Below, piece by piece: positions 8,417 through 62,330 of a stretch of DNA of 64,000 nt. Each line of letters begins with the position of its first letter. Within the stretch, counting starts at the first letter, position 1. The notes beneath the pieces were generated by a model. That model was not told the origin of the DNA and searched no databases. It saw only the letters and a list, made by a program, of their open reading frames with translations. The DNA is from an uncultured Nitrospira sp. (lineage in GTDB: Bacteria > Nitrospirota > Nitrospiria > Nitrospirales > Nitrospiraceae): positions 334,648 through 398,647 of the forward strand of contig CABVRX010000001.1 of NCBI GenBank assembly GCA_902500825.1, written 5' to 3'. Made by a program: the position numbers and the translations under genes.

Positions 8417-9903
8417 TACACCCCTACTCGTGATTCATAGTTCCAGAGTGCCTGGAGGCGTGGCCGCTCGACCCGCCAGAAGTAACAACCGAATATTCCG
8501 GCCATCGCCATCGCTAAGAGTGCAGGCGTCCACGAGATAGCAAGCCGAGACTGACTGACTCCGGTCCACAACAGTGCCCCGGTTACAAGGCCAAGGATTC
8601 CGGTTCGGCCAAGAGACACAAACGTATCATCGGTCGACCGGCCGAGAAGCCGACGCGTTTCCACTGCTTGAAGTATGGTGCCGAAAAGATAGCTTGTCGT
8701 CAGCGAAATCGACGCGCCGAACACTCCGAGCGAGACCGTCATGGGAACGATCATCGTCACGTATAGCGCACATTGTGCGAGCCAACTTTTCATCTGGAGA
8801 TCCGGCCGCCCTAAGCCATAGTGCAAGGAGGCCATGACACTGGCGTAGCCGGCGCAGACAGAATAAAGGCAAAAGATTTTCAGGGAGTCGCTGATGCTGG
8901 TCCATTGTGGGCCGAACACGATTGGAACCATGATAGGCGCCAAAGCACCTATCGTGACGGCAAGGGGGATATAGACGATGCCGATAAGTCCCATCTGCAG
9001 ATCGAAAACGCGAATCAGGCCAAGTTGATCCCGTTGCAATGACGCATAGGTCGGCACGCTGATTTGTTGCATGAGCGCTGTGGCACGAGCACCGAACAGG
9101 AGGGGGATGGCGAGCGCCACTTGATACAATCCCAACGCTTCTGATCCCAACAGGCGGCCGATCACCAGCTCTCCTCCGGTCATGACGCAGAAGGCGCACA
9201 GTGTGATCAGGTTCATATTTCCGCCATGCCGGATGAAATAGGAAAGCACTGACAGTTTAAGGGACCGGCCAGGAGTAAACGGGGCGATACGGAAAGAAAG
9301 AAGACTCCAGAGCATCAAGCCGACCAACTGTCCGATCACCAGCGCCCACACGGTCCGATAGAGGATAGCGATTGTCAGCGTTACGATCGCTTCCACGATG
9401 CGTCGTGCAACGTCAAGCGCGACTCGTCGCCCCAAGTTCAGCTTCTTCAGCATGAGCGCCATCGCCGGGCTTTGGAAGCCTTGGATGATGAGGGCCCACG
9501 CATGAACTCGCAATAAAGACTCCAGGACCGGCATGCGCATGAATTCACCGATCATCCCTGCTATGATCCAGATTCCGATTGCCATCAAGAGCCCCCTGAC
9601 GGCGGACAAGGTCCAGACCGCTGCGAGGTCATCTTCGCTGACGACCTCTTTGGCAATGAGTGCCGAGTCCAGCCCCAGCTCACTGATCGTGAGCATCGTC
9701 AGCAATACGGCGGCAGAAGCCGCCATCACACCGAAATCTGCCGGAGTCAGAATTCGTACCAGTACCGCCAATTGAACGGCCGCGATCACTTTATCGAGCA
9801 GAAATCCACTTCCGCCCCACCAACCGGCCCGAAGGATCCTATGGCGTAAACGCAACGGACTCGGATCAGGATCCTGGATACGTATTGCCGACAAACCAGT
9901 CAT
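8416..9903 (-). CDS. Wzx-like polysaccharide flippase (MOP superfamily)
   Basis: 495 residues and roughly twelve to fourteen hydrophobic helices. The N-terminus GGSGFLLDKVIAAVQLAVLVRILTP matches the start of the polysaccharide_synt family (PF01943/PF13440, WzxC-like), with TPADFGVMAASAAVLL after it. The protein would flip the undecaprenyl-linked repeat unit from cytoplasm to periplasm. It lies between two glycosyltransferase genes, 25 bases before the next GT4. Together with the Wzy-like and Wzc/Wza-like genes it defines a Wzx/Wzy-dependent pathway. Confidence 0.9.
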   Translation of the reverse strand: MTGLSAIRIQDPDPSPLRLRHRILRAGWWGGSGFLLDKVIAAVQLAVLVRILTPADFGVMAASAAVLLTMLTISELGLDSALIAKEVVSEDDLAAVWTLSAVRGLLMAIGIWIIAGMIGEFMRMPVLESLLRVHAWALIIQGFQSPAMALMLKKLNLGRRVALDVARRIVEAIVTLTIAILYRTVWALVIGQLVGLMLWSLLSFRIAPFTPGRSLKLSVLSYFIRHGGNMNLITLCAFCVMTGGELVIGRLLGSEALGLYQVALAIPLLFGARATALMQQISVPTYASLQRDQLGLIRVFDLQMGLIGIVYIPLAVTIGALAPIMVPIVFGPQWTSISDSLKIFCLYSVCAGYASVMASLHYGLGRPDLQMKSWLAQCALYVTMIVPMTVSLGVFGASISLTTSYLFGTILQAVETRRLLGRSTDDTFVSLGRTGILGLVTGALLWTGVSQSRLAISWTPALLAMAMAGIFGCYFWRVERPRLQALWNYESRVGV

Positions 9904-9928
9904 TGCTTTTTGATATCGTAATTTGTGT

Positions 9929-11116
9929 TTAAGCCGCCGATTTCATTTCCGCAATCGCGTGATCACAAACCCGATCAAGTTGTGCAGCCCGCGCCGCCCA
10001 AGTATGAGATCGGACCACGGCCTTCCGTCCCCGTTCGCCCATATTTCTACGAAGATCCTGATCGACTAAAAGACAAAGAAGTTGACGGGCAAGATCACTC
10101 GAATCATCGGCTTTAGCCGACAAACCACAGCGTAGCTCTTCCACCGTGTCTCCATATCCAGAACCGGCTGTCGCAACAACGGGGCGCCCACAAGCCAGGT
10201 ATTCCCACAGCTTCATCGAATCTCCGGGGTAGGAACGTGTCTGTCGATGCAACACCACACAAACATCTGAAGCCGCGATCCATTTGGGGACCATGTCAAA
10301 ATCGACACGCCCGATAAATTGAACGTGGGCCGAGAGCTGCAACTGTCCAACCTGTTCTTCAAGAGCTCTTTTCGTTTGCCCATCTCCGACCATGAGACAT
10401 TGAACCAGTGGGAACGATTTCGCGACGATGGCGATGGCTTCGACAAGTATGTCGAGACCATGCCACGGGAAGAATCCACCGACAAATACAACGTACGGCC
10501 CTTGAGCGATGAGATTAAGTTCTACTCTGACTTTTTCCTGAGGCTGGGGAAAGAAGCGATCCGGATCAACTCCATTTCTGATGACGGAACATCCCTTCGT
10601 GTCGATAAGCTCTAGATTCCCAAGACCCATCAATACCTCCGGACACACACTGACCAAAGCAGTCGCCTTTCTGGAAGCAAGACGAAGCCCGTATGATAGT
10701 AGGCGACGAAAAGGCGGACGACGCCATAGACCTTGAACTTCTTCAAGCGGAAGACCGTTCACAAAAAACACGATCGGGCACGTGCTATTGCGAAGCGCCC
10801 AGAGCGGGGCTATCTGCCCCGGAGAATCAAACCATAACAACACCTCAGGACGCCTTGCCTGCAAGAGTCTTTTTAACAGTCTCATGGAACCCCAAAAAAA
10901 TGAAAAAGGGCGAAGCCTGCCCCATCGCACAACCGGCACGAAGGCAATCTGCACCTGAGCGGAAGCCTCGAAAGCGATTCTCTCTCGTTCGGATTGAGGA
11001 GCCACTAAGATGACTTCATGACCGCGCAACGCGAGCGCCTTGGCAAGCTCCAGCACTTGCCGGGAACCGCCGGCCGCCACCCCGATATCTTCATCACAAT
11101 ACGTGAGAATGCGCAT
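9929..11116 (-). CDS. Glycosyltransferase family 4
   Basis: 395 residues started at MRILTYCDEDI, which has CAGGAGT about nine bases upstream and overlaps the previous glycosyltransferase gene by 23 bases; a longer ORF upstream would be mostly out-of-frame coding. The N-terminal loop AAGGSRQVLELAKAL and the C-terminal VVFVGGFFPWHGLD, MVGDGQTKRALEE and PGDSMKLWEYLACGRPVVA are typical GT4. The motif position normally holding a second Glu is kept (KLWEYLACG). It is probably paralogous to the neighbouring GT4 of the same length. Confidence 0.9.
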   Translation of the reverse strand: MRILTYCDEDIGVAAGGSRQVLELAKALALRGHEVILVAPQSERERIAFEASAQVQIAFVPVVRWGRLRPFSFFWGSMRLLKRLLQARRPEVLLWFDSPGQIAPLWALRNSTCPIVFFVNGLPLEEVQGLWRRPPFRRLLSYGLRLASRKATALVSVCPEVLMGLGNLELIDTKGCSVIRNGVDPDRFFPQPQEKVRVELNLIAQGPYVVFVGGFFPWHGLDILVEAIAIVAKSFPLVQCLMVGDGQTKRALEEQVGQLQLSAHVQFIGRVDFDMVPKWIAASDVCVVLHRQTRSYPGDSMKLWEYLACGRPVVATAGSGYGDTVEELRCGLSAKADDSSDLARQLLCLLVDQDLRRNMGERGRKAVVRSHTWAARAAQLDRVCDHAIAEMKSAA

Positions 11117-12281
11117 GCCGGATGACTCCTGCGTCTTTCCCAATCCACCGACAAAGTTGCTCCACAATAGCCGTCCACGAGAATCTCTCTTCGACAAATT
11201 GACGCCCCTGTCTCCCCAACTGCGCGCACCGATCTGGATCATTCAACAGAGCGAGAATCGCATCAGCCAGCGGACAGGGTTCGTCCGGTTGGACAAACTG
11301 CACACCGCTGTCCGGAGTAAAAGTCGATACGACACTGGGGATCGCGCTTGCGACAACCGGACGATGACAGGCCAAATAGTCAAAGAGTTTAACCGGCGAA
11401 GCTTCTCCTCGATCTCCACGAAATGGTGCAACACACACGCTCATCGCCCCAATCCAAATGGGCACCTCCCGGTAAGGAACTCGACCAACCCAGGTAATAC
11501 TGCGGTCGAATTCCATCCTCTTGGCCTGTTGCTTCAATTCGTCAATCGCTTCTCCGTCCCCCACCAATAGCAGTTCAGCCGATGGACAGGCCCGCTTGAC
11601 CAACGTCATCGCATCGAGCAGGCAAGCCAATCCCTGGTAGCGATAGAAACTTCCGACGAACCCAATGTACGGACGATTCGGCACAAGACCAAGTTCCAAA
11701 CGACAGGCCACCGCATCACGTGCGGCAAATCGTTGGACATCGGTTCCGCTCGGAAGAACGACGATCCGTTCAAGCAGGACCCCATAGCGCTCATGAAGCA
11801 ATGTCCGCAATCCCTCTGTCAGAACGATGATATGATCGCAGCGTTTCAAAGTCAGCCTGGTTAACAGATGTTTGGCCCTGCGTACGAACTTGTTTTGGTT
11901 CCTGGGCCATTCGGGAACCGGTTCACCGTTGACCTCGCAGACACATGGCACACCGAGTAGTTTGGCTAAGATCAACGCATGCGGACTGTCCATCCATCGG
12001 TAGTACACGATATCGGGTCTGGTCACGAGCGCCTGCATCAGGGCACGCACGAATGACAACAGCGCATAGGAGAGCGGTCGGATGAACGGCAGATGGATAA
12101 GATGAATCGGAATGATCGTACAGACTCGTTGAGCAAGCGACGATCGATACCGCGGGGGAAAGAGCGTCACCCTGTCTCCGGCGCTGGTTAAGGCATCGGC
12201 CAATGTCCAGACACGCACGAGCCCAACCGGATCATTCGGGGCATCGGGCTCATACCAATAACAAAAGAAAAACCACGTCAC
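11094..12281 (-). CDS. Glycosyltransferase family 4
   Basis: 395 residues from a GTG that overlaps the stop of the polymerase gene (GTGA), with AGGAGG just upstream inside that gene. It opens VTWFFFCYWYEPDAP, a common start of WcaI-type GT4 proteins. C-terminal landmarks are IGFVGSFYRYQGL, LVGDGEAIDEL and GEASPVKLFDYLACHRPVV. It has the same order of motifs as the following GT4, so the pair likely arose by duplication and adds successive sugars. Confidence 0.9.
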   Translation of the reverse strand: MTWFFFCYWYEPDAPNDPVGLVRVWTLADALTSAGDRVTLFPPRYRSSLAQRVCTIIPIHLIHLPFIRPLSYALLSFVRALMQALVTRPDIVYYRWMDSPHALILAKLLGVPCVCEVNGEPVPEWPRNQNKFVRRAKHLLTRLTLKRCDHIIVLTEGLRTLLHERYGVLLERIVVLPSGTDVQRFAARDAVACRLELGLVPNRPYIGFVGSFYRYQGLACLLDAMTLVKRACPSAELLLVGDGEAIDELKQQAKRMEFDRSITWVGRVPYREVPIWIGAMSVCVAPFRGDRGEASPVKLFDYLACHRPVVASAIPSVVSTFTPDSGVQFVQPDEPCPLADAILALLNDPDRCAQLGRQGRQFVEERFSWTAIVEQLCRWIGKDAGVIRHAHSHVL

Positions 12282-13660
12282 ACGGCCTCCTGCGGCTTGA
12301 CCGGTTGGTTGGCCTGGGCAGACAGAGTCGGTAAGAGCATGACCAACCCTGCGCAAAGCCAAAACGGTTCCATGATGCGGATAATGATGAACGTATTGGC
12401 TCCGATCCCGTGCGCGAGCATGGCGATAAGACCCAAAAGAAACCCGTGGGCTAATCCTTTGGCAAAGGGATCGGTTTCAGACAAAAGAGACTCACGGGCA
12501 CAGCGCCACAGACGGTAGATAATGAACCCAAAAGCGACGAGTCCGGCAAGACCGGTCTCTCCGATGATTTTGACGTATTGCGCATCGGCCCATGCATACC
12601 CGGTGATTCCTCGCCCAAGAATAGGGTCATGGACCCAGTCCTTGAGAACATATGCCCACGATTTCAGGCGCTCAGTTGTCGAAAGGTCCAGTCCGACGGC
12701 ACCTACTTTGATTTCTCCGCCATATTGGCGGCCAAAAAATGTTTCATTGACCCGTTGCTTCACATTGGCAGGCGCCAACAGTGGAACCACGGTAATGACA
12801 ACGAGTAACAGTGTCAGCACCCGAGGGCGTCTCCACTGGGTCAACCCTACCGTCATCAGCAGGACAACACCGGCCAGGTAAGAAGAACGCGACAAGGTGG
12901 CCATCAAGGCCAACACGGCAAAACCAGCAAGCACCAACAATGCGATGCGAATCGGTCCGAACTGAACATGCAACAAGAGTCCGGTCATGATCGCCAGAAG
13001 GAATACCAGGTAGCCGCCCAACGTGTTCGGTTCTCCGATTTCACCTTCAAATGGGGCTGAGGCACGCTGGCCGCTCGGTATTTGCGAAATCGCATACAAG
13101 CTGACGATAAGGCCGACGGTCAGCAGGGCCAGCACAAGCCCTACCACCTGCCGTTGAGACCGCACATGGTTGACGACCATAAAAAATACAAAAAAATATT
13201 CAAAGTACTTCAGAACAAAAAAAAAGCCGGTCAGTGGTCTGACATGTCCGTTTAGGACACCGACTAAGGTTGAAATGACACAGATCACCATGTACACCGC
13301 GATGGGTCGGTTCAGTGGTGTCTCACGAAATAACGCCAGTTCACGGTAGACGATGGTCTTGACCAGCCAACTGACTCCGATGACGACTAACAAAATGTCG
13401 TCCATCCGGAATGACAACTCTCGCCCACCGACACCACGTCCTTCGATCTGCCCGATAGCGATCTCAGGAGACAACAACATGGACGCAATCAGCAGGTAGA
13501 GAGCAGCGGGTACGGAGGTAAAGGCCGTCAAAACGATCAAAAACCCTATGACCGCTTGCATACCCATTGTAGGGGTCGTGAGCGTGAGACCTACTGCGAT
13601 GGCGGCGGCTAGTACGGCGATGACCAGGCTATCTTGAGGACTGATGGCTGCCTGTTGCAT
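12278..13660 (-). CDS. O-antigen ligase/polymerase family membrane protein (Wzy-like)
   Basis: 460 residues with about twelve hydrophobic helices. The region RASAPFEGEIGEPNTLGGYL and the following helix are characteristic of the Wzy_C family (PF04932). Downstream, TLSRSSYLAGVVLL and a large periplasmic loop with GRGITGYAWADAQYVKI and GETGLAGLV hold the conserved Arg, Tyr and Glu of O-antigen polymerases and ligases. In this locus a polymerase role is more likely than a lipid A-core ligase role because Wzx, Wzc and Wza partners are adjacent. Confidence 0.88.
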   Translation of the reverse strand: MQQAAISPQDSLVIAVLAAAIAVGLTLTTPTMGMQAVIGFLIVLTAFTSVPAALYLLIASMLLSPEIAIGQIEGRGVGGRELSFRMDDILLVVIGVSWLVKTIVYRELALFRETPLNRPIAVYMVICVISTLVGVLNGHVRPLTGFFFVLKYFEYFFVFFMVVNHVRSQRQVVGLVLALLTVGLIVSLYAISQIPSGQRASAPFEGEIGEPNTLGGYLVFLLAIMTGLLLHVQFGPIRIALLVLAGFAVLALMATLSRSSYLAGVVLLMTVGLTQWRRPRVLTLLLVVITVVPLLAPANVKQRVNETFFGRQYGGEIKVGAVGLDLSTTERLKSWAYVLKDWVHDPILGRGITGYAWADAQYVKIIGETGLAGLVAFGFIIYRLWRCARESLLSETDPFAKGLAHGFLLGLIAMLAHGIGANTFIIIRIMEPFWLCAGLVMLLPTLSAQANQPVKPQEAV

Positions 13661-15849: not shown

Positions 15850-16644
15850 CTATGGCTTGAACGTCGTCAACGCCGGAATCAGATACGCCGGATAAATCGG
15901 CATGATGGCGACCTGAAGAATGGGCATAATTTTCAGCGCCGCCTCCTTCGCATCCCCTAATTGTTCACGTGGGACAAAAATCACATCGTTTTCCTCGAGC
16001 GAGATATTTCGTGAAAGATCGCCGTACGTGAAAAGACGGGCCAAATCGGCCGTCAGAATTGTCGGTTTGGAAAAATCTCCTCCTCGCACCACTCGAATCT
16101 CTTCCAATAGTGCGGTCTCGTGAAAATTGTCTGCGGCGGCGAGGGCCTGCAGGACCGTCATATTCCTCGCCATGGGAACCATCCCGGGTTTCTTAACGTC
16201 TCCAAATACAAAAACTCGTTTGATCTTGAGCAACTTCTTTTTCAGCGCAATCTGAGCACGCGGTTCCCTCATGAAAGGCTTAGCCGCCTCTTGCACACGC
16301 CGTTCAGCTTCAGCCACAGTGACCCCTTGAACGTCGACCTCCATAAATCCGACGGCAACGGACCCGTTCTCACGTACCAAGCTGCTGTACTTCTCTTCTC
16401 CCGCTCCTCGACGAATAACGACATCCAGGGTGTCTCCCGCTTCGATTGGTGTATCCGCGGTCGGAACCGTCTCGTCTGTATAGACGTCGCCTTTCGGCAA
16501 GGGAGGAATCACCTGAGATGCTGAAGTCACTGCCGAAGGTGGCAAAGTCGATTGTCCAGGGTTGCGACAGCCAGCCAGAGACAAGAGGCCGATTTCGGCC
16601 AACAACAGACCAACTACGACTGATTCCTTCCGAAGCTGCCGCAT
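15850..16644 (-). CDS. Wza-like polysaccharide export lipoprotein
   Basis: 264 residues. The signal peptide ends in a lipobox LAGC with lipidated Cys at about residue 26. A Poly_export domain (IEAGDTLDVVIRRG, YSSLVRENGSVAVGFMEVDV, AERRVQEA) and an SLBB domain (KRVFVFGDVKKPGMVPM, TVLQALAAAD) follow, then NDVIFVPRE. The protein would form or recruit the outer-membrane exit channel working with the Wzc-like protein 27 bases downstream. It lacks the long C-terminal amphipathic helix of E. coli Wza, ending instead in a hydrophobic PILQVAIMPIYPAYL segment. Confidence 0.92.
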   Translation of the reverse strand: MRQLRKESVVVGLLLAEIGLLSLAGCRNPGQSTLPPSAVTSASQVIPPLPKGDVYTDETVPTADTPIEAGDTLDVVIRRGAGEEKYSSLVRENGSVAVGFMEVDVQGVTVAEAERRVQEAAKPFMREPRAQIALKKKLLKIKRVFVFGDVKKPGMVPMARNMTVLQALAAADNFHETALLEEIRVVRGGDFSKPTILTADLARLFTYGDLSRNISLEENDVIFVPREQLGDAKEAALKIMPILQVAIMPIYPAYLIPALTTFKP

Positions 16645-16654
16645 ACAAAATCTC

Positions 16655-17611
16655 CTACGACACTATCCTGGTTTGTAGGATCTCCACGATATGCGCGGAC
16701 ATGACTTGCGACAGGTCCACCTCTCTTGCTTGACCGAGCTTGGAGATTGTCACCACAGGCCGGAGCGGATAGCGCGGGTTAACCTTCGTCACCGATCCAA
16801 TCCCCCCCGTATTGAGACGCACGTCGGTCCCAATCGGATAGAGCGTGATCTGATCCCCCAACCCTTTCAACACACGCAGAGAAAACTTCGTTTTGGCATG
16901 AAGAAACAGGTCACGGACTCCCTGGTGAGGTGTCATGCATTGGCGATAAGGCCTCCTCGTGACCATTGCATCCAGTGTATCGACCATTCCAATGATCTGT
17001 GCAGGCTCAGCAATCTGCCCGTCCTTAAGCCGACATGGGTATCCACTGCCATCCAGCCGTTCATGTTCCTGTGCACTGATCGTCGAGACCCATTCAAACC
17101 CGCTGCCCTGCCCGGCGAGGATCCGACGGCCTCGTTCAGGATGAGTATGGAGGATATCTCGCTCTTCCTCCGATAATGTTTCTCTTTTCTCGACGATCGC
17201 TACGGGCATCGCCCACATACCGATGTCGTGCAACAGACTTGCCAACACCAGCCGCTCCAAGTCTTGCTGTGAATAATGCAACCCCATCCCGACTTTAGCC
17301 CCCAAGACTGCGACATGGAGCGCATTGTCTATGAGATAGTCTTCAGTTTGTCCATCCAAAGCCCATCGGACGAGCTCGTCGCCGTGATTGAGGAGCTGCA
17401 CCAACTGTCCGGCGAGGTCGGTACAGCCTGTGAGCCTCGGGCTCCTACTTGAACGAACCGCCTCTCTGATCTTCCCGAGCTCCTGTCTGGTCGAGACACA
17501 CCAAAGGCGATGATCAGCAATCAGAGACGAGGATCCCATCTTCGAAGGCAACATCTCCCCGCTCTGCGAATCAGGAGTCCGTTCTCGAATCAAGTCAGAA
17601 AGCCGTGCCAC
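16655..17611 (-). CDS. HD-GYP domain c-di-GMP phosphodiesterase
   Basis: 318 residues if the GTG at the right end is used; ATG codons 19 and 24 residues later are alternatives because the GTG lacks a well-spaced ribosome binding site. The HD-GYP signature is complete: ASLLHDIGM (HD pair), HTHPERG, SAQEHERLDGSGYP and IGMVDTLDAM. A C-terminal part of about 80 residues resembles a small beta domain (DVRLNTGGIGSVTKVNP). No sensor or membrane segment is present. HD-GYP enzymes degrade c-di-GMP, so its place ten bases before the export gene suggests feedback control of polysaccharide output. Confidence 0.88.
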   Translation of the reverse strand: MARLSDLIRERTPDSQSGEMLPSKMGSSSLIADHRLWCVSTRQELGKIREAVRSSRSPRLTGCTDLAGQLVQLLNHGDELVRWALDGQTEDYLIDNALHVAVLGAKVGMGLHYSQQDLERLVLASLLHDIGMWAMPVAIVEKRETLSEEERDILHTHPERGRRILAGQGSGFEWVSTISAQEHERLDGSGYPCRLKDGQIAEPAQIIGMVDTLDAMVTRRPYRQCMTPHQGVRDLFLHAKTKFSLRVLKGLGDQITLYPIGTDVRLNTGGIGSVTKVNPRYPLRPVVTISKLGQAREVDLSQVMSAHIVEILQTRIVS

Positions 17612-55757: not shown

Positions 55758-56786
55758 TCAGCAGGTGAGCACGATCTTGCCGAAAAACCTCCGACTTGCC
55801 ATCAATTCCTGAGCTGCACGGGCCTCCTGGAGAGGAAATGTTCGATCGATCACCGCAATCAACCGCTTCTGGCCGATCAGGTCAGCGGCTTTCAGCAGCT
55901 CTGCCCGCGTCCCCATATAAGAACCTTTAATCGTCAGCTGGCGCGAAAACACATAGCGCAGATTGAGGGTCACGTCCCCACCGGTAGTTGCGCCGCACGT
56001 GATCAGCCGGCCGCCTTTTGAGAGTGACCCCAAACAGTCGTCCCATACCTCCGGCCCGATATGTTCAACAACCACATCAACCCCTCGCCCTTCCGTCAGC
56101 AATTTGACCCGCTCCGAGACCTTTTCTTTAGAGTGATCGATGACCGCATCGGCGCCCAAGATCACTGCTTTGGGAATCTTGTCATCGGAACCGACGGTGG
56201 TGATCACACGCGCACCCGTCAGCTTCGCCCACTGAACAGCCATCATCCCGACACCGCTTCCCGCGCCCATCACGAGCACAGTTTCTCCAGGCTGCAGCCC
56301 GGCCAGTGCAAACAGCATGTGCGACGCCGTGACGGAGACAAGTGGAAATGCCGCGGCCTGTTCGAAGGTTATGTTTTCGGGTATCGGCAGCACATTTCGA
56401 AACGGAACTTTCACATACTCGGCATAGCCGCCATGCATCCTGGTTCCCAAAAGATTGTACGTTCGACACATATTATCCCGACCGGCCAAGCAGAACTCGC
56501 AATTCCAGCAGCTGATACCCGGCGACACAAAGACTCGCGTGCCGGCGACGATACCTTCGACGTGAACCCCCACCTGTTCAACAATCCCAGACACATCCGA
56601 CCCCCCCACATGAGGTACGGAAGCGGCATAGGCAGGACTCCCCTGTCTGACCCAGATGTCGAGATGGTTCAGCGCACAGGCCTTGACCCGAATCAACACG
56701 TCTTGCGGACCGATCTTCGGCATCGGCATCTCCTCATAGGAGAGCTTGTCCGGCCCACCATATTCGTGAAACAAGACAGCCTTCAC
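55758..56786 (-). CDS. Zinc-binding MDR-family alcohol dehydrogenase/quinone oxidoreductase
   Basis: 342 residues from GTG with AAGGA upstream. MKAVLFHEYGGPDKL is a quinone-oxidoreductase-like start, while the structural zinc loop CWNCEFCLAGRDNMC is present as in alcohol dehydrogenases. GHE-equivalent GGSDVSGIVEQVG and the NAD(P) motif VLVMGAGSGVGMMAVQWAKL are clear. The catalytic-zinc His of classical ADHs is not obvious, so a reductase role is possible. Confidence 0.9.
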   Translation of the reverse strand: MKAVLFHEYGGPDKLSYEEMPMPKIGPQDVLIRVKACALNHLDIWVRQGSPAYAASVPHVGGSDVSGIVEQVGVHVEGIVAGTRVFVSPGISCWNCEFCLAGRDNMCRTYNLLGTRMHGGYAEYVKVPFRNVLPIPENITFEQAAAFPLVSVTASHMLFALAGLQPGETVLVMGAGSGVGMMAVQWAKLTGARVITTVGSDDKIPKAVILGADAVIDHSKEKVSERVKLLTEGRGVDVVVEHIGPEVWDDCLGSLSKGGRLITCGATTGGDVTLNLRYVFSRQLTIKGSYMGTRAELLKAADLIGQKRLIAVIDRTFPLQEARAAQELMASRRFFGKIVLTC

Positions 56787-56992: not shown

Positions 56993-57922
56993 TCAAAACC
57001 TCAACTCCCCTTCCACCACCATCACACACTGCCCACCGACCTTCACCTCTTGGATCACGTCGTCGCTCGAATCAACTTGCACCAGAATCCGTGATGGCCG
57101 ATCGATTTCGTAGCCCTGTTCGATAAGGATATCCGTCGTCGGCCCCACCTCAACGACACCGTTCTGAACGAGGTACGCTCCAAGTGCCCCGCCGGCGCTC
57201 CCCGTCGCAGGATCCTCCAAAATTCCAATTTTCGGCGCAAACATCCTCGCATGGACGGACGCGAATGATTCAACGGTCACCGTCGTGAAGACCATGATCC
57301 CGTTGGCCCCGAATCGTTCACAGACGTTGATGATGGCCGACGCATCGGGGTTGATCGACCGGACGGCCGTCAACGTCCTTACCGGAACGATCAAGACCGG
57401 CAAGCCGGTCGACACGACTTGGATGGGCCATTTTGTGTCGGCGATCACATGCTTCGGCAAGCCAAGCGCTCCACCGGCCAAATACACATCGTCGATGGCA
57501 TCGAGAGGGTCGAGAAATTCCGGTTTGGGTTGAGACATGACAACCCGCACGACACGACTTTGTTCCGCATGCAATTCGACGGGGAATAAACCGATATTAC
57601 ATTCCTGCATGACACGCGTCACCGGCTCCCCAGTAGGAACTCTCCCGAGCTGGGCCAACACGAAAAATGTGCCCAGCACGGGATGGCCAGCGAAGGGAAT
57701 TTCCTGAGTCGGGGTAAAGATCCGTAACCGGACCATTGCGGCAGGATCGGTGGGTGGGAAGACGAACACCGTTTCCGACAGATTCATCTCCCGTGCAATC
57801 TGTTGCAGCTCGTCGTCTGTCAGTCCATCGGCGTCGGGGAAAACCGCGACAGGGTTGCCGCCGAACGGTTGAGAGGTAAAGACATCAGCCTGATAGAATT
57901 TTAAAGACCGTTGTTCAGCCAC
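56993..57922 (-). CDS. PhzF-family isomerase-like protein
   Basis: 309 residues if the GTG before [10 protein letters not shown] is used; upstream GTG and TTG codons are alternatives. [36 protein letters not shown] with the catalytic Glu, [18 protein letters not shown] and [17 protein letters not shown] are the diagnostic PhzF motifs. Family members catalyse isomerisation or epimerisation of small metabolites (PhzF in phenazine synthesis), but most have no known substrate, and no phenazine genes are nearby. Confidence 0.9.
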
Positions 57923-58028
57923 GGTCACGCTCGAACTCGTCCGGATCACACGAGAAGACCCAATTGCGCCATGAGCAAACAACCGGCATCATTTGACAGG
58001 CCTCCTCCCTGTTTGACAGACTCCACCT

Positions 58029-58283
58029 ATGGACCACATCACCGAGCACGACGTCGCCCATGCATTGGAAATTCTCGGCCTCACGCTCCCCATCACCACC
58101 GAAGACCTGGAACGGGCGAAGCGCGTCCAGCTCTACAACTGGAACCCGACGCGCTATGCCGGCCTGACCAACAGTCCAAAGCAATACATGCAACAGTTTC
58201 AGAAAGCCGAACACATGACTCGGACGGTTGAAGCCGCTTACGCACTACTGTCGGCAGTATTCGTCCCGGATACAGAAGGATAA
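58029..58283 (+). CDS. Small conserved-looking soluble protein, J-domain-like
   Basis: 84 residues, divergent from the phzF gene. It opens MDHITEHDVAHALEILGL and continues LERAKRVQLYNWNPTRYAGLTNSPKQYMQQ with AAYALLSAVF near the end. The spacing of the hydrophobic helices and the closing A-Y-x-L-L are reminiscent of a J-domain core, but there is no HPD motif, so it should not activate Hsp70. I do not recognise a named family. Confidence 0.7.
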   Translation: MDHITEHDVAHALEILGLTLPITTEDLERAKRVQLYNWNPTRYAGLTNSPKQYMQQFQKAEHMTRTVEAAYALLSAVFVPDTEG

Positions 58284-58375: not shown

Positions 58376-60322
58376 TCACCCGGCGTCGTGACTGGTTACG
58401 CGCGACATCCCTTCGTCGCCTTGCGAATGCGCAACCGGCCAGGTAATCAAGCCTGACACTCCGTCCGGTGATCCCACCGGCTGCGTCTGCTGAGCATAAA
58501 TTTGCGGCAACCGGTTCGTCCCGAACTTCGAGATATAGAGAAAGACGTGTTCGCGAGAGTTGACCCGCACGGCCCAGGGATGGAAATCACGCTTGTAGAA
58601 TTCCTCGCAGAGCTGCATCGCATCGAGACACGACAGCGAGCTGGGATCATTCAAGGTGTAGTAATAGTCCAGCGGCAGATCGTACTCCTCCTGCTTATGG
58701 ATTGTAATGCCGAATTGTTCCGGATGACGCACCATCGGGGTGTGGCGGTAGGCCACGAAGTAGAAGAGCTCCAGCGAATGAATCACCGGCTGGTGATCGA
58801 GGACAAACTGACGGGTTTCCATGGCCTCCTCGACTGTCTCCCCCGGAAAGCCATAAAAGGCCATTACATGGTTCCAAATTCCCGCCTTCGCCGCCATCTG
58901 GAGATTGCGTTCGATGACGCTTTTCCGAGCGTGCTTGTCCATGAGATTCAAGACCCGCTCATTCGCTGATTCCATCCCGTAATAGAGCGTGCAACAGCCG
59001 GCCTTGGCCGCCAGATCCCACGTAGCCTGATCTTGCAGTGTCTCTTCAAACCTGATGAGCGTCGTCCAGTTGATCCCAACGTCTTGGTCGACCAGCAGCT
59101 GGGAGACTTTCTTGAACAATGCCGGCGGGTAGGATTCATCGGAAAATAGAAAATGCCGGCAATGGTACTTATCCCGCAACGCCTTGATCTGGTCGATCAC
59201 CAGCTGAGCCGGCATCCCGCGGTACTGATCGAAGTACCCTTGGCCATGGTCGCAGAACGTACAGCGGCCCCAGTAGCAGCCGCGCGTCGCCAGGTAAGGA
59301 ATGATCAGTTCCGGGACGAAGTAACGATCCAGCGGCATCCCATCAAAATCCGGCAATGGGAGCGCGGTTGTCTTCTCAGTGTAGATTTCAGGATTTCGGT
59401 GGAGGCCCGACTCATCGCGATAGACTAAGTTTGGAACGGAGGCCAGAGGCCGCTGCCCATTCAACGCTTCAAGGAGCCACAACAGCGCATGTTCCCCTTC
59501 ATAGAGAATCGCTGAATCAAAGACCTCCGTAAAAAATCTTTCATGATTCACGAGGTCTTCCTGTAACCGCGTGATCACATTCCCACCGACCACCACATGT
59601 ACGTTCGGGAACGTCTCCGTGATCATTTTCGCGAATGTTAAGCCGGCCAAGAGCTGCATCTGTGTTCCAATGGAAATCCCGACCACGTCCGGCTGTTCTC
59701 TGGCCACATCCGGCATGACCAACTGATTGCAGAGATCCCGATAGACGTTCACCTGCTCATCTTCCAAACAGGCAAACACTTCCTTCGAGACACCGGGACG
59801 ATACCCGAGATTGCTTTCCATCGGATAAAAAACGAGGGAAGCGGGATAGTAGGCGGCTGAGATATAGGCCATCGTCTCGCGGAAGGTGTTGAGCGCTCCT
59901 TCCAGCTTCTCCGCCTCATAGAAACGCTCGCCGCGCACGATCGCCTTGGCATCTTCGGCCCGATCCGCCAGATCGAAGACATCGAGGTCATAAGCCTGTT
60001 CCACCACCGCCATGTGACTCACATCCCGTTCAGTCAGAGATCCCGCCTTCTCTTTCTCCTGTAGAACCTTCAGCTGCATGCCCAACCGAGCCTTCACCCA
60101 AACCAGAAACTCCATGCTGAAGAAGTGGTCCCACATGCCGATATTGATATCGCGCTGAATGACCGTGTGACCGGCCCCACGCAAAACAGCAGTGAGCGAA
60201 GGTAAGGCAAGATATGGCGCCGTCGGCACCCACTCGGGCGGAAAGATGAGCATGACTTTGGATTTCTTTTGCGTACCCTTAGCCAGTGGGGCGAGACCGT
60301 CTATTTGCAGCAGATCACTCAT
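58376..60322 (-). CDS. B12-binding-domain radical SAM protein (second of tandem pair)
   Basis: 648 residues. The N-terminal Rossmann half (about 22-260) looks like a cobalamin-binding domain (VMLIFPPEWVP, LPSLTAVLRGAGHTVIQRDI, VVVGGNVITRL) but has no DxHxxG motif. The radical SAM core has TRGCYWGRCTFCDHG with Cys349, Cys354 and Cys357, a CX4CX2C spacing, and then FSDESYPPALF, CCTLYYGMESANERVL and YGFPGETVEEAMET. The C-terminal part contains YDLPLDYYYTL. Substrate unknown. It follows its paralogue by ten bases. Confidence 0.9.
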   Translation of the reverse strand: MSDLLQIDGLAPLAKGTQKKSKVMLIFPPEWVPTAPYLALPSLTAVLRGAGHTVIQRDINIGMWDHFFSMEFLVWVKARLGMQLKVLQEKEKAGSLTERDVSHMAVVEQAYDLDVFDLADRAEDAKAIVRGERFYEAEKLEGALNTFRETMAYISAAYYPASLVFYPMESNLGYRPGVSKEVFACLEDEQVNVYRDLCNQLVMPDVAREQPDVVGISIGTQMQLLAGLTFAKMITETFPNVHVVVGGNVITRLQEDLVNHERFFTEVFDSAILYEGEHALLWLLEALNGQRPLASVPNLVYRDESGLHRNPEIYTEKTTALPLPDFDGMPLDRYFVPELIIPYLATRGCYWGRCTFCDHGQGYFDQYRGMPAQLVIDQIKALRDKYHCRHFLFSDESYPPALFKKVSQLLVDQDVGINWTTLIRFEETLQDQATWDLAAKAGCCTLYYGMESANERVLNLMDKHARKSVIERNLQMAAKAGIWNHVMAFYGFPGETVEEAMETRQFVLDHQPVIHSLELFYFVAYRHTPMVRHPEQFGITIHKQEEYDLPLDYYYTLNDPSSLSCLDAMQLCEEFYKRDFHPWAVRVNSREHVFLYISKFGTNRLPQIYAQQTQPVGSPDGVSGLITWPVAHSQGDEGMSRVTSHDAG

Positions 60323-60332
60323 AGGCCCCCGC

Positions 60333-62231
60333 TCACATTTTCCCTGCTAACGTCGGCACTACTCCGGAAGTTTTGACGGCTTGATACTGTAGATCCTGAA
60401 GCTTTCCTAATCCAAACCTTGAGATATAGAGAAAGATATATTCACGAATATAGAGACGCAAATCCCAGCCGGGATTGTGGTTCCGCTCGAACTGCTCGAA
60501 CACCCGCTCGGCCTCTTCGATGCTCATGCCGTTCTTCACTGTGTAGTAGTAGTCCAGCGCCAAATCCCAATCGGGATTCTTGTACGCCGTCACGCCCCAC
60601 TTTTCCGGATGTTTGGCCACCGGATTATGTCGCCCCAGATCGAACGTCCCGAACCCCAGCGAATGGACATGATCCTTGTTCTGCTCGAGGAACTGCACCG
60701 ACTGCCACGCTTCCTCCTTTGTTTCGCCTGGAAAACCGAAAAAGCCCATGCAGTGGTTCCAGATACCCGCCTCCGCCGTCAGCTTCAAGTGATGTGTCAT
60801 CACCTCTGCCGTCGTCGCCTTGTCCATCAGCTGCAAGACTCGCTCGACTCCCGACTCGTAGCCGAAGTGCAGATAGCGGCAACCCGACTCCTTCGCATCC
60901 TGCCAGACGGCGTCTTCCAACAGACTTTTCTCGAACCGCATGTGCGTCGTCCAGAAGATATCCATTTTGCTCTCGACCAATCCTCGAGAGAGCTTGCGGA
61001 ACAGCGCCGGCGGATAGGACTCGTCGGTGAAATGAAAATGTTTGGCGCCGTACTTGTCGCGCAGATAGGTGATGTCGGCGAGAATGTCCTGAATCTTCTT
61101 CGACCGATAGCCGGCGGTATAGCCCTCGCCATGGTCGCAGAACTCGCAACGTCCCCAATAACACCCACGCGTCGCCAGATAGGGCAAGACACGGGTTGGA
61201 ACGAAATACTTCTCAAGCGGCAATCCGTCGAAGTCCGGCGGCGGCAGCGCAGCCATGTCCTCCGCATAACTCAACGGAGAAACATGAATACCCGTCTCGT
61301 CTTTATAGATCGCATTCGGCACATTGGCCAAACTCCGCTTGGCGCCGACCGCCTCGACCAATTGCGTGAATGCCGTCTCCCCTTCATAGACCACGGCACT
61401 GTCGAAATACTGAAAGAGGGGCGACTCAGGCAGCACGTCGCGTAAGCGGGTCACCGTGTTGCCGCCGATCGTAATATGGATATGGGGAAAGTGTTGTTTG
61501 ATGAGAGCACAGAAAGTCATGGAGGAGAACATCTGCTGCTGCAGCACAATTGAGATCCCGATCACATCCGGCTTTTCCTGTTGGATCACCGGTTTGACCA
61601 GATGGTCGAACACGTCCCGGTACACGTTGACCTGCTCATCTTGCACGGCATCCATCACCTCTGCCGAGACGTACGGCTTGTACGACAAATCCGTTTCCAT
61701 CGGCGGCATGCAGATCCGCGCCGGGGCATAGACCAGTGAAATGACTGATGTGACTTCTCGAAAGACTTGAATTGACCACTCTAACTTATCAATATCGTAG
61801 AACTTTTCATTTCTGACAACGTGCTTCGCCTCTTCCGCATCCAGGATCAATTTCTCCATCCGTGGACGTGTGATATCGCAGAGCGTCAGCTGTACATCCA
61901 TTTCCCACTCGGTCAGCTCCCGCTTCTTGGCCAACTTGCGGAGCCGATCCAACTGCTGCGGCACCCGACGCAGAACCTTCTTCAGAAAATCCTCGCTGAA
62001 GTACCAGTCCCACATCTCACAGTTGATATCTTTTTGAATGACCGTATGCCCGGCTTGGCGGAGAACGGAGGTGAGGGAAGGAAGGCTTAAATAGGGTTCG
62101 GAGGGGTACCAGTCCGGCGGGAAGATCAGCATCACTTTCATCTTCCGGCCGCTGGCTTCAAACGAAGTCCGGCGGTGGAGCTGAATCAGCTCCTTCGACG
62201 CCCGATTTCCCTTCGTGTATTCGACTTTCAT
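60333..62231 (-). CDS. B12-binding-domain radical SAM protein (first of tandem pair)
   Basis: 632 residues, homologous along its length to the following gene: VMLIFPPDWYPSEPYLSLPS, GHTVIQKDINCEMWDW, EQVNVYRD, TIGGNTVTRL, TRGCYWGRCEFCDHG (Cys357, Cys362, Cys365), FTDESYPPALF, LHFGYESGVERVL, GFFGFPGETKEEA and DLALDYYYTV. It also lacks DxHxxG. The pair looks like an old duplication kept together, perhaps forming a heteromer or acting in consecutive steps. No precursor peptide or acceptor gene is recognisable beside it. Confidence 0.9.
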   Translation of the reverse strand: MKVEYTKGNRASKELIQLHRRTSFEASGRKMKVMLIFPPDWYPSEPYLSLPSLTSVLRQAGHTVIQKDINCEMWDWYFSEDFLKKVLRRVPQQLDRLRKLAKKRELTEWEMDVQLTLCDITRPRMEKLILDAEEAKHVVRNEKFYDIDKLEWSIQVFREVTSVISLVYAPARICMPPMETDLSYKPYVSAEVMDAVQDEQVNVYRDVFDHLVKPVIQQEKPDVIGISIVLQQQMFSSMTFCALIKQHFPHIHITIGGNTVTRLRDVLPESPLFQYFDSAVVYEGETAFTQLVEAVGAKRSLANVPNAIYKDETGIHVSPLSYAEDMAALPPPDFDGLPLEKYFVPTRVLPYLATRGCYWGRCEFCDHGEGYTAGYRSKKIQDILADITYLRDKYGAKHFHFTDESYPPALFRKLSRGLVESKMDIFWTTHMRFEKSLLEDAVWQDAKESGCRYLHFGYESGVERVLQLMDKATTAEVMTHHLKLTAEAGIWNHCMGFFGFPGETKEEAWQSVQFLEQNKDHVHSLGFGTFDLGRHNPVAKHPEKWGVTAYKNPDWDLALDYYYTVKNGMSIEEAERVFEQFERNHNPGWDLRLYIREYIFLYISRFGLGKLQDLQYQAVKTSGVVPTLAGKM

Positions 62232-62300
62232 CCCGGCCTACCTACTCTCTTCAGTTACCTAAATGACTGGAAAGCCAATGAGTTAGACTCGAAAGAAAGC

Positions 62301-62330
62301 ATTGTACGAGGGCTGAAGAAGGAGATGCAA
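62301..62330 (-). promoter_or_regulatory. Possible promoter of the radical SAM pair
   Basis: On the minus strand TACAAT (five of six) is preceded after 18 bases by TTGCAT (three of six). It lies about 70 bases before the first radical SAM gene. Confidence 0.35.

Follow-up and report, generated by a model that had tools for sequence, protein, structure and literature searches.

PoyB and PoyC, which are tandem C-methyltransferases, act in polytheonamide synthesis. MgmA, a cobalamin (B12)-dependent radical S-adenosylmethionine (SAM) enzyme, is the glutamine C-methylase of methyl-coenzyme M reductase; its gene clusters with the methyl-coenzyme M reductase operon in some methanogen groups, which was the route to its discovery, and its expression has only a slight effect on growth (PMC11796369). 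The subject of this study is a tandem pair of genes, A and B, in a 64,000-nucleotide stretch of DNA (hereafter the window) from an uncultured Nitrospira sp. (contig CABVRX010000001.1, positions 334,648 to 398,647; the window's genome is G000). Nitrospira are widespread nitrite oxidisers and include comammox bacteria. The pair belongs to a known enzyme class, within which it forms an old and uncharacterised branch that is conserved throughout the order Nitrospirales; a third paralogue, C, heads an operon of nitrite oxidoreductase (NXR) accessory genes. The best overall explanation, to which we give a probability of roughly 0.38, is that A and B are two peptide or protein C-methyltransferases tied to nitrite oxidation. 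Literature searches for Nitrospira and radical SAM returned no open-licence title or abstract on this pair.

Genes A and B and their family

The two genes lie on one strand of the window:

60333..62231, minus strand: gene A, 632 amino acids (aa), B12-binding and radical SAM enzyme, upstream member of the pair
58376..60322, minus strand: gene B, 648 aa, B12-binding and radical SAM enzyme, paralogue of A

The initial annotation, made from the letters alone, described two open reading frames (ORFs) of 632 and 648 residues, homologous throughout and ten bases apart. Coordinates and alignment agree with this, as the intergenic gap in the window is 10 bases and BLASTP aligns the two proteins over nearly their full length with 289 of 611 positions identical (47%); the motifs DESYPPALF and GFPGET, pointed out at the same time, are present in both aligned sequences. 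Judged by Pfam gathering scores, both proteins contain a radical SAM domain (PF04055; 52.5 bits for A and 56.9 for B, cut-off 29.5) and a B12-binding domain (PF02310; 40.6 bits for A and 33.8 for B, cut-off 32.1, which B barely exceeds). In A, the B12 domain has a helical stretch of about 120 residues between its first and second parts, according to the secondary structure of the AlphaFold2 model, and the Pfam match starts from residue 211. The cluster motif CX4CX2C reads CYWGRCEFC in A (residues 357-365) and CYWGRCTFC in B (residues 349-357), and among distinct sequences it is kept in 98 of 99 for A, in all 80 for B and in all 7 for C. The AlphaFold2 models have a predicted local distance difference test (pLDDT) of 85.9 and a predicted template modelling score (pTM) of 0.87 for A, and a pLDDT of 85.6 for B. 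In structural comparisons (including Foldseek), which were run with the model of A alone, A matches the solved folds of OxsB (Z 22.6), TsrM (21.6), AprD4 (21.4), CysS (20.9) and MgmA (20.6). The domains of both proteins and the structural matches of A thus uphold the B12-type radical SAM class proposed earlier, and on sequence and model A and B are almost certainly cobalamin-dependent radical SAM enzymes.

The duplication is old. A family match is found in 55 of 59 relatives and, order-wide, in 226 of 235 genomes; the nine genomes without one are four of group f4 and five metagenome-assembled genomes (MAGs) at 70-90% completeness. Among the loci compared, some of which repeat one genome, A precedes B on one strand in 117 of 117 adjacent pairs, with gaps mostly from -7 to 241 bases; the longer negative gaps we take to come from over-extended ORF starts. 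In a tree of 58 rows, A, B and C each form one clade and A groups with B (96/89), while five outside rows sit on very long branches and are unsure in placement. Ninety-eight positions are common at >95% in A, in B and in C, and 45 positions are >97% fixed in both A and B yet differ between them, many in the radical SAM part. The duplication with retention that was claimed for the pair is therefore an old one, with A and B monophyletic, grouped together and fixed differently at these 45 positions. Because both copies stay under constraint and have diverged, their sequences suggest different functions, and the fixed differences would fit two distinct reactions or sites. An obligate heterodimer carrying out one reaction rather than two would also be in keeping with the strict adjacency and order of A and B and with their joint absence in one clade; however, neither protein has lost a cluster cysteine or its B12 domain, so that neither resembles a dead partner, and the gaps between the genes reach 241 bases; we consider such a heterodimer rather unlikely.

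The substrate of the two proteins, left unassigned in the initial annotation, is likewise not assigned by homology: searches of Pfam, NCBIfam and Protein Data Bank (PDB) sequences placed A and B in no specific family at its cut-off, and no NCBIfam family reaches its own. The highest-ranked subfamily model for A is TIGR03975, for radical SAM C-methyltransferases in the maturation of ribosomally synthesised and post-translationally modified peptides (RiPPs) (126.6 bits for A and 105.7 for B, cut-off 281.85), and the highest-ranked model for B is TIGR04479, for the P-methyltransferase PhpK (117.1 bits for A and 140.9 for B, cut-off 600). These nearest models are matched at under half of their curated scores, and the models of MgmA (TIGR04014; 55.5 bits for A and 40.8 for B, cut-off 360) and of BchE, HpnJ and HpnR (at most 80.1 bits for any, cut-offs 481, 578 and 650) rank lower. 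Among PDB sequences, phmmer with A gives MgmA as the sole match at E<=0.01 (E 2.3e-6), and a profile search places OxsB first (E 4e-18) and MgmA second. The weak matches to HpnJ, HpnR, BchE and a ladderane-type model would agree with an action on lipids or tetrapyrroles, through hopanoid, ring-forming or BchE-like reactions. Their scores of 44.6-80.1 bits stand against cut-offs of 360-650, however, and no lipid or porphyrin gene was recognised among the conserved neighbours of the pair, which leaves this reading very improbable.

Within the phylum, the nearest full-length relatives detected are those of G198, G158 and G119. In G198, which belongs to another Nitrospirota class, three tandem B12 radical SAM enzymes (the cluster covers L182:593-6129 and 16304-16705) are accompanied by a precursor with an NHLP leader (TIGR03793, 85.8 bits, cut-off 50.9) and followed by both NHLP exporters, above their cut-offs. 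Judged from these genes, the locus is a true NHLP (proteusin-type) RiPP cluster; to our knowledge it has not been described. Plasmid relatives in Rhizobium, Sinorhizobium, Parabacteroides and Aureibacter cover >80% of A at 24-28% identity, in mixed contexts. Like the tandem enzymes in proteusin clusters, A and B might modify a RiPP, with its precursor encoded at another place in the genome; both the ranking of the RiPP C-methyltransferase and PhpK models and the tandem relatives beside a precursor in G198 speak for this. On the other hand, the model scores are under half of the curated cut-offs, the conserved neighbours include no exporter or RiPP gene, and near-universal vertical conservation in the order (226/235) is unlike a natural product cluster; we regard a RiPP substrate of this kind as improbable.

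Sister enzyme C and the nitrite oxidoreductase genes

Outside the window, the same genome encodes a third member of the family:

L117:8948-10726 (contig C3 of the window's genome, about 51.9-53.7 kb): C, third paralogue, heading an operon
L117:7519-8490: NxrC gene upstream of C

C is 35-36% identical to A. It stands first in a string of genes, with mostly short gaps, for a membrane protein, a TPR protein, TatA, an NHL-repeat protein, an EB_dh-type NxrC, a PDZ protein and two cytochromes, both of which are pentahaem proteins with five CxxCH motifs each. The operon was examined in seven loci, with the TPR and TatA genes not called in L130 and the PDZ gene not called in L133. Upstream of C, on the same strand, are genes for NxrC, a nitrate-reductase-delta/TorD-type chaperone and a 4Fe-4S protein (L132 begins too close to C to show them). 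In N. moscoviensis, the NxrC upstream of C has 316 aa and 34.2 kDa. The most transcribed gamma subunit of that organism, nxrC_2, is NITMOv2_3624 (34.2 kDa) and is adjoined by the TorD-like NITMOv2_3625, and nxrC_1 is NITMOv2_3617 (PMC6606698). From this gene order we infer that C corresponds to NITMOv2_3623; the word "radical" is absent from the main text of that paper. C thus sits behind nxrC_2 and the TorD-like chaperone, at the head of an operon of NXR accessory genes that include those for TatA, NxrC_1 and the two pentahaem cytochromes.

This setting changes the earlier picture of the pair. The statement that no target gene is beside it holds within the window, but the third paralogue lies elsewhere in the same genome; and the survey of neighbourhoods in other genomes that the initial annotation had proposed shows the picture of an orphan pair to be incomplete, since C leads an NXR accessory operon in the Nitrospirales genomes studied closely. 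In the gaps between nxrC_2 and C, inspected by eye, a hairpin-like stretch is followed by a shared TTGCA...TGTATAA element; a conserved short peptide was sought in seven of these gaps, also by eye, and none is shared.

Among 295 genomes drawn from the phylum, C is present in 98 Nitrospirales, of which 92 carry two or more members of the family and six a single one. Searched with the NxrA sequence of G041, 79 of the 98 give a match at E<=1e-150; the absence of NxrA in the other 19 is not taken as real, as at most two candidates were scored per genome and G022 has NxrB. In G236, C and an NxrC gene flank a fragment of nxrA, and a copy of nxrA lies about 20 kb from C in G108, G146, G188, G192 and G277 and far away in other closed genomes. 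A, B and C are all missing from the four f4 genomes, which belong to the same order and give no NxrB-grade match. For A and B themselves, one case of proximity is known: in G041 (group f2), the pair lies about 4.4 kb from nxrA, with nxrA/nxrB near the pair (L126:651-4154 and 8587-12436; L115 is the same sequence from another collection). Linkage to and co-occurrence with NXR, of a maturase-like kind, are therefore seen for C, whereas A and B show only the proximity in G041, besides an NXR-bearing clade without them.

In the reading that we favour, A and B would be functional cobalamin-dependent radical SAM enzymes, expressed from a short separate operon and each predicted to bind a [4Fe-4S] cluster, SAM and cobalamin. 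Acting in the cytoplasm, they would methylate an unactivated carbon in the side chain of a peptide or protein, presumably at different sites or residues. We give a peptide or protein substrate an even chance and an NXR-related one a chance of roughly one in three. Because sister C opens the TatA/nxrC_1/pentahaem cytochrome operon right after nxrC_2 and the TorD-like chaperone, the substrate may belong, with less certainty, to the respiratory apparatus of nitrite oxidation, as an NXR subunit, an NxrC-type gamma subunit or an associated cytochrome. By analogy with MgmA and methyl-coenzyme M reductase, the modification would be a tuning step and not a requirement for activity. The more specific proposal, that NXR gamma subunits or attached pentahaem cytochromes receive radical C-methyl groups from A, B and C as three site-specific, B12-dependent methylases, is doubtful; we know of no radical C-methylation on any nitrification enzyme.

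Neighbourhood, losses and competing readings

The surroundings of the pair in the window include the following:

62301..62330, minus strand: promoter-like element before A (TTGCAT, 18 nt, TACAAT; coordinates counted by hand)
58029..58283, plus strand: c3, a small 84-aa protein of a conserved family, J-domain-like via a weak Pfam match of a relative
56993..57982, minus strand: PhzF-family isomerase gene, conserved neighbour downstream of the pair, absent together with A and B in several genomes
55758..56786, minus strand: zinc-type alcohol dehydrogenase/quinone oxidoreductase-like gene, conserved neighbour

HPD is the J-domain motif, and the window copy of c3 has NPTR at its place. The c3 gene is convergent with B and divergent from the PhzF gene; because it converges with B, A and B look like a separate two-gene operon. 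Comparison of 52 different upstream regions from close relatives shows the promoter-like element before A to be conserved; a consensus scan does not list it, and its first hexamer is a weak match. Downstream of it, before A, is a conserved leader (window 62232-62330; TAACTCATTGGCTTTCCAGTCATTT), a possible regulator site. A cobalamin riboswitch before A was sought with Rfam, whose only match in the window is a tRNA, identified as tRNA-Leu by ARAGORN, and the sigma-54 promoter pattern used matches 0 of the 52 upstream regions.

Most loci of groups f1 and f3 have A, B, c3 on the opposite strand, often c6, the PhzF and dehydrogenase genes and a CBS gene, beyond which MogA-like and 2Fe-2S genes lie on the other strand. 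c6, which has about 413 aa, is a radical SAM protein whose C-terminus resembles DUF512; it is conserved beside the pair in 32 loci (e.g., L124:11756-12994). As an essential partner c6 was set aside, having no match in the window's genome, though an empty search alone shows little. Another candidate partner, c14 (about 415 aa), which adjoins A in f2 and is near A in some f1 loci, also has no match in the window's genome and lacks one in 9 of the 21 genomes searched.

These neighbours give rise to the main rival, a small-molecule or cofactor pathway of A, B, PhzF, the dehydrogenase and often c6, in which a single compound would undergo two radical steps in succession, by methylation, ring formation or dehydration. 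The order A-B-(c3)-c6-PhzF-dehydrogenase is conserved in f1 and f3 loci, and small molecules are the substrates of the characterised structural relatives OxsB, AprD4, CysS and TokK, in part according to their PDB titles. A and B are also jointly absent with PhzF in G008, G009, G033, G251, G311, G038, G053 and all four f4 genomes, several of them incomplete MAGs, but this joint loss may be the loss of one segment. Moreover, c3 stands on the opposite strand between B and c6/PhzF, so that A and B are not simply co-transcribed with PhzF; c6 is without a match in the window's genome; the f2 pair has no PhzF gene as a neighbour; and G051 has PhzF and the dehydrogenase with no match to A or B. Such a pathway seems to us a possible but tentative alternative, and if it holds, the Nitrospirales would have an unrecognised conserved metabolite.

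Not all of the absences are equally telling. In G032 and G076 the contigs apparently end at c3 or within PhzF, and C of G032, G033 and G311 is nearly identical to C of genomes with A and B; the absences in G032, G076, G033 and G311 look like assembly gaps. Real loss of A and B looks confined to the clade of G008, G009 and G251, with G038, G051 and G053 (f2) undecided. The three members of this clade are smaller-genome Nitrospira, and their copies of C are L209, L207 and L208.

Several observations weigh against a link of A and B to nitrite oxidation. G008, G009 and G251 form a supported clade (100/99) that has kept C and NXR without A, B and PhzF, and because of this clade A and B are not required for NXR. 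The conserved neighbours of the pair are the PhzF, dehydrogenase, CBS and MogA-like genes, none of them an NXR gene, and A and B are near nxrA in one species only. Twelve genomes of other classes also have NxrA (40-43% identity), and no ORF matching A, B or C was found in 12 nxr-like stretches from 11 of these 12 genomes (G119 is not among the 11). Finally, all the evidence on the substrate is by association. The loci of other Nitrospirota classes (L170-L181) have operons of NxrA-like, NxrB-like and EB_dh gamma genes, mostly with a TorD-type chaperone gene.

Comparison with known systems

Sister enzyme C in an NXR accessory operon is a useful new lead, and the substrate of A and B is a testable question. 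Modification of the NXR apparatus by A, B and C, if it occurs, might adjust a central step in nitrogen cycling; NXR made in a heterologous host would then not be the same as the native enzyme, and nitrification would be coupled to a need for cobalamin. MgmA (PDB 9ccb), on which the proposed mechanism is modelled, has its enzyme class and fold in common with A (Z 20.6 over 370 residues). It differs in sequence (about 17% identity), in its cluster motif, which in the alignment is CX3CX2C as opposed to CX4CX2C in A and B, and in being a single enzyme in the cited source, whereas A and B are a tandem pair. OxsB (PDB 5ul2-5ul4), the top PDB profile match and top structural match of A (its Z is tied within 1 with others), is 19% identical to A and has a longer chain (744 aa); its motif, CDYSRCTFC, has the same CX4CX2C spacing, which is thus not unique to A and B. 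Around the pair no phosphonate or phosphinate gene was recognised that would recall PhpK (TIGR04479). The likeness to the TIGR03975 enzymes and to the tandem B12 radical SAM enzymes of proteusin clusters lies in the TIGR03975 ranking of A and in the three tandem relatives of the G198 NHLP cluster, which have CYW-type CX4CX2C motifs; neither a precursor nor an exporter is recognised near A and B.

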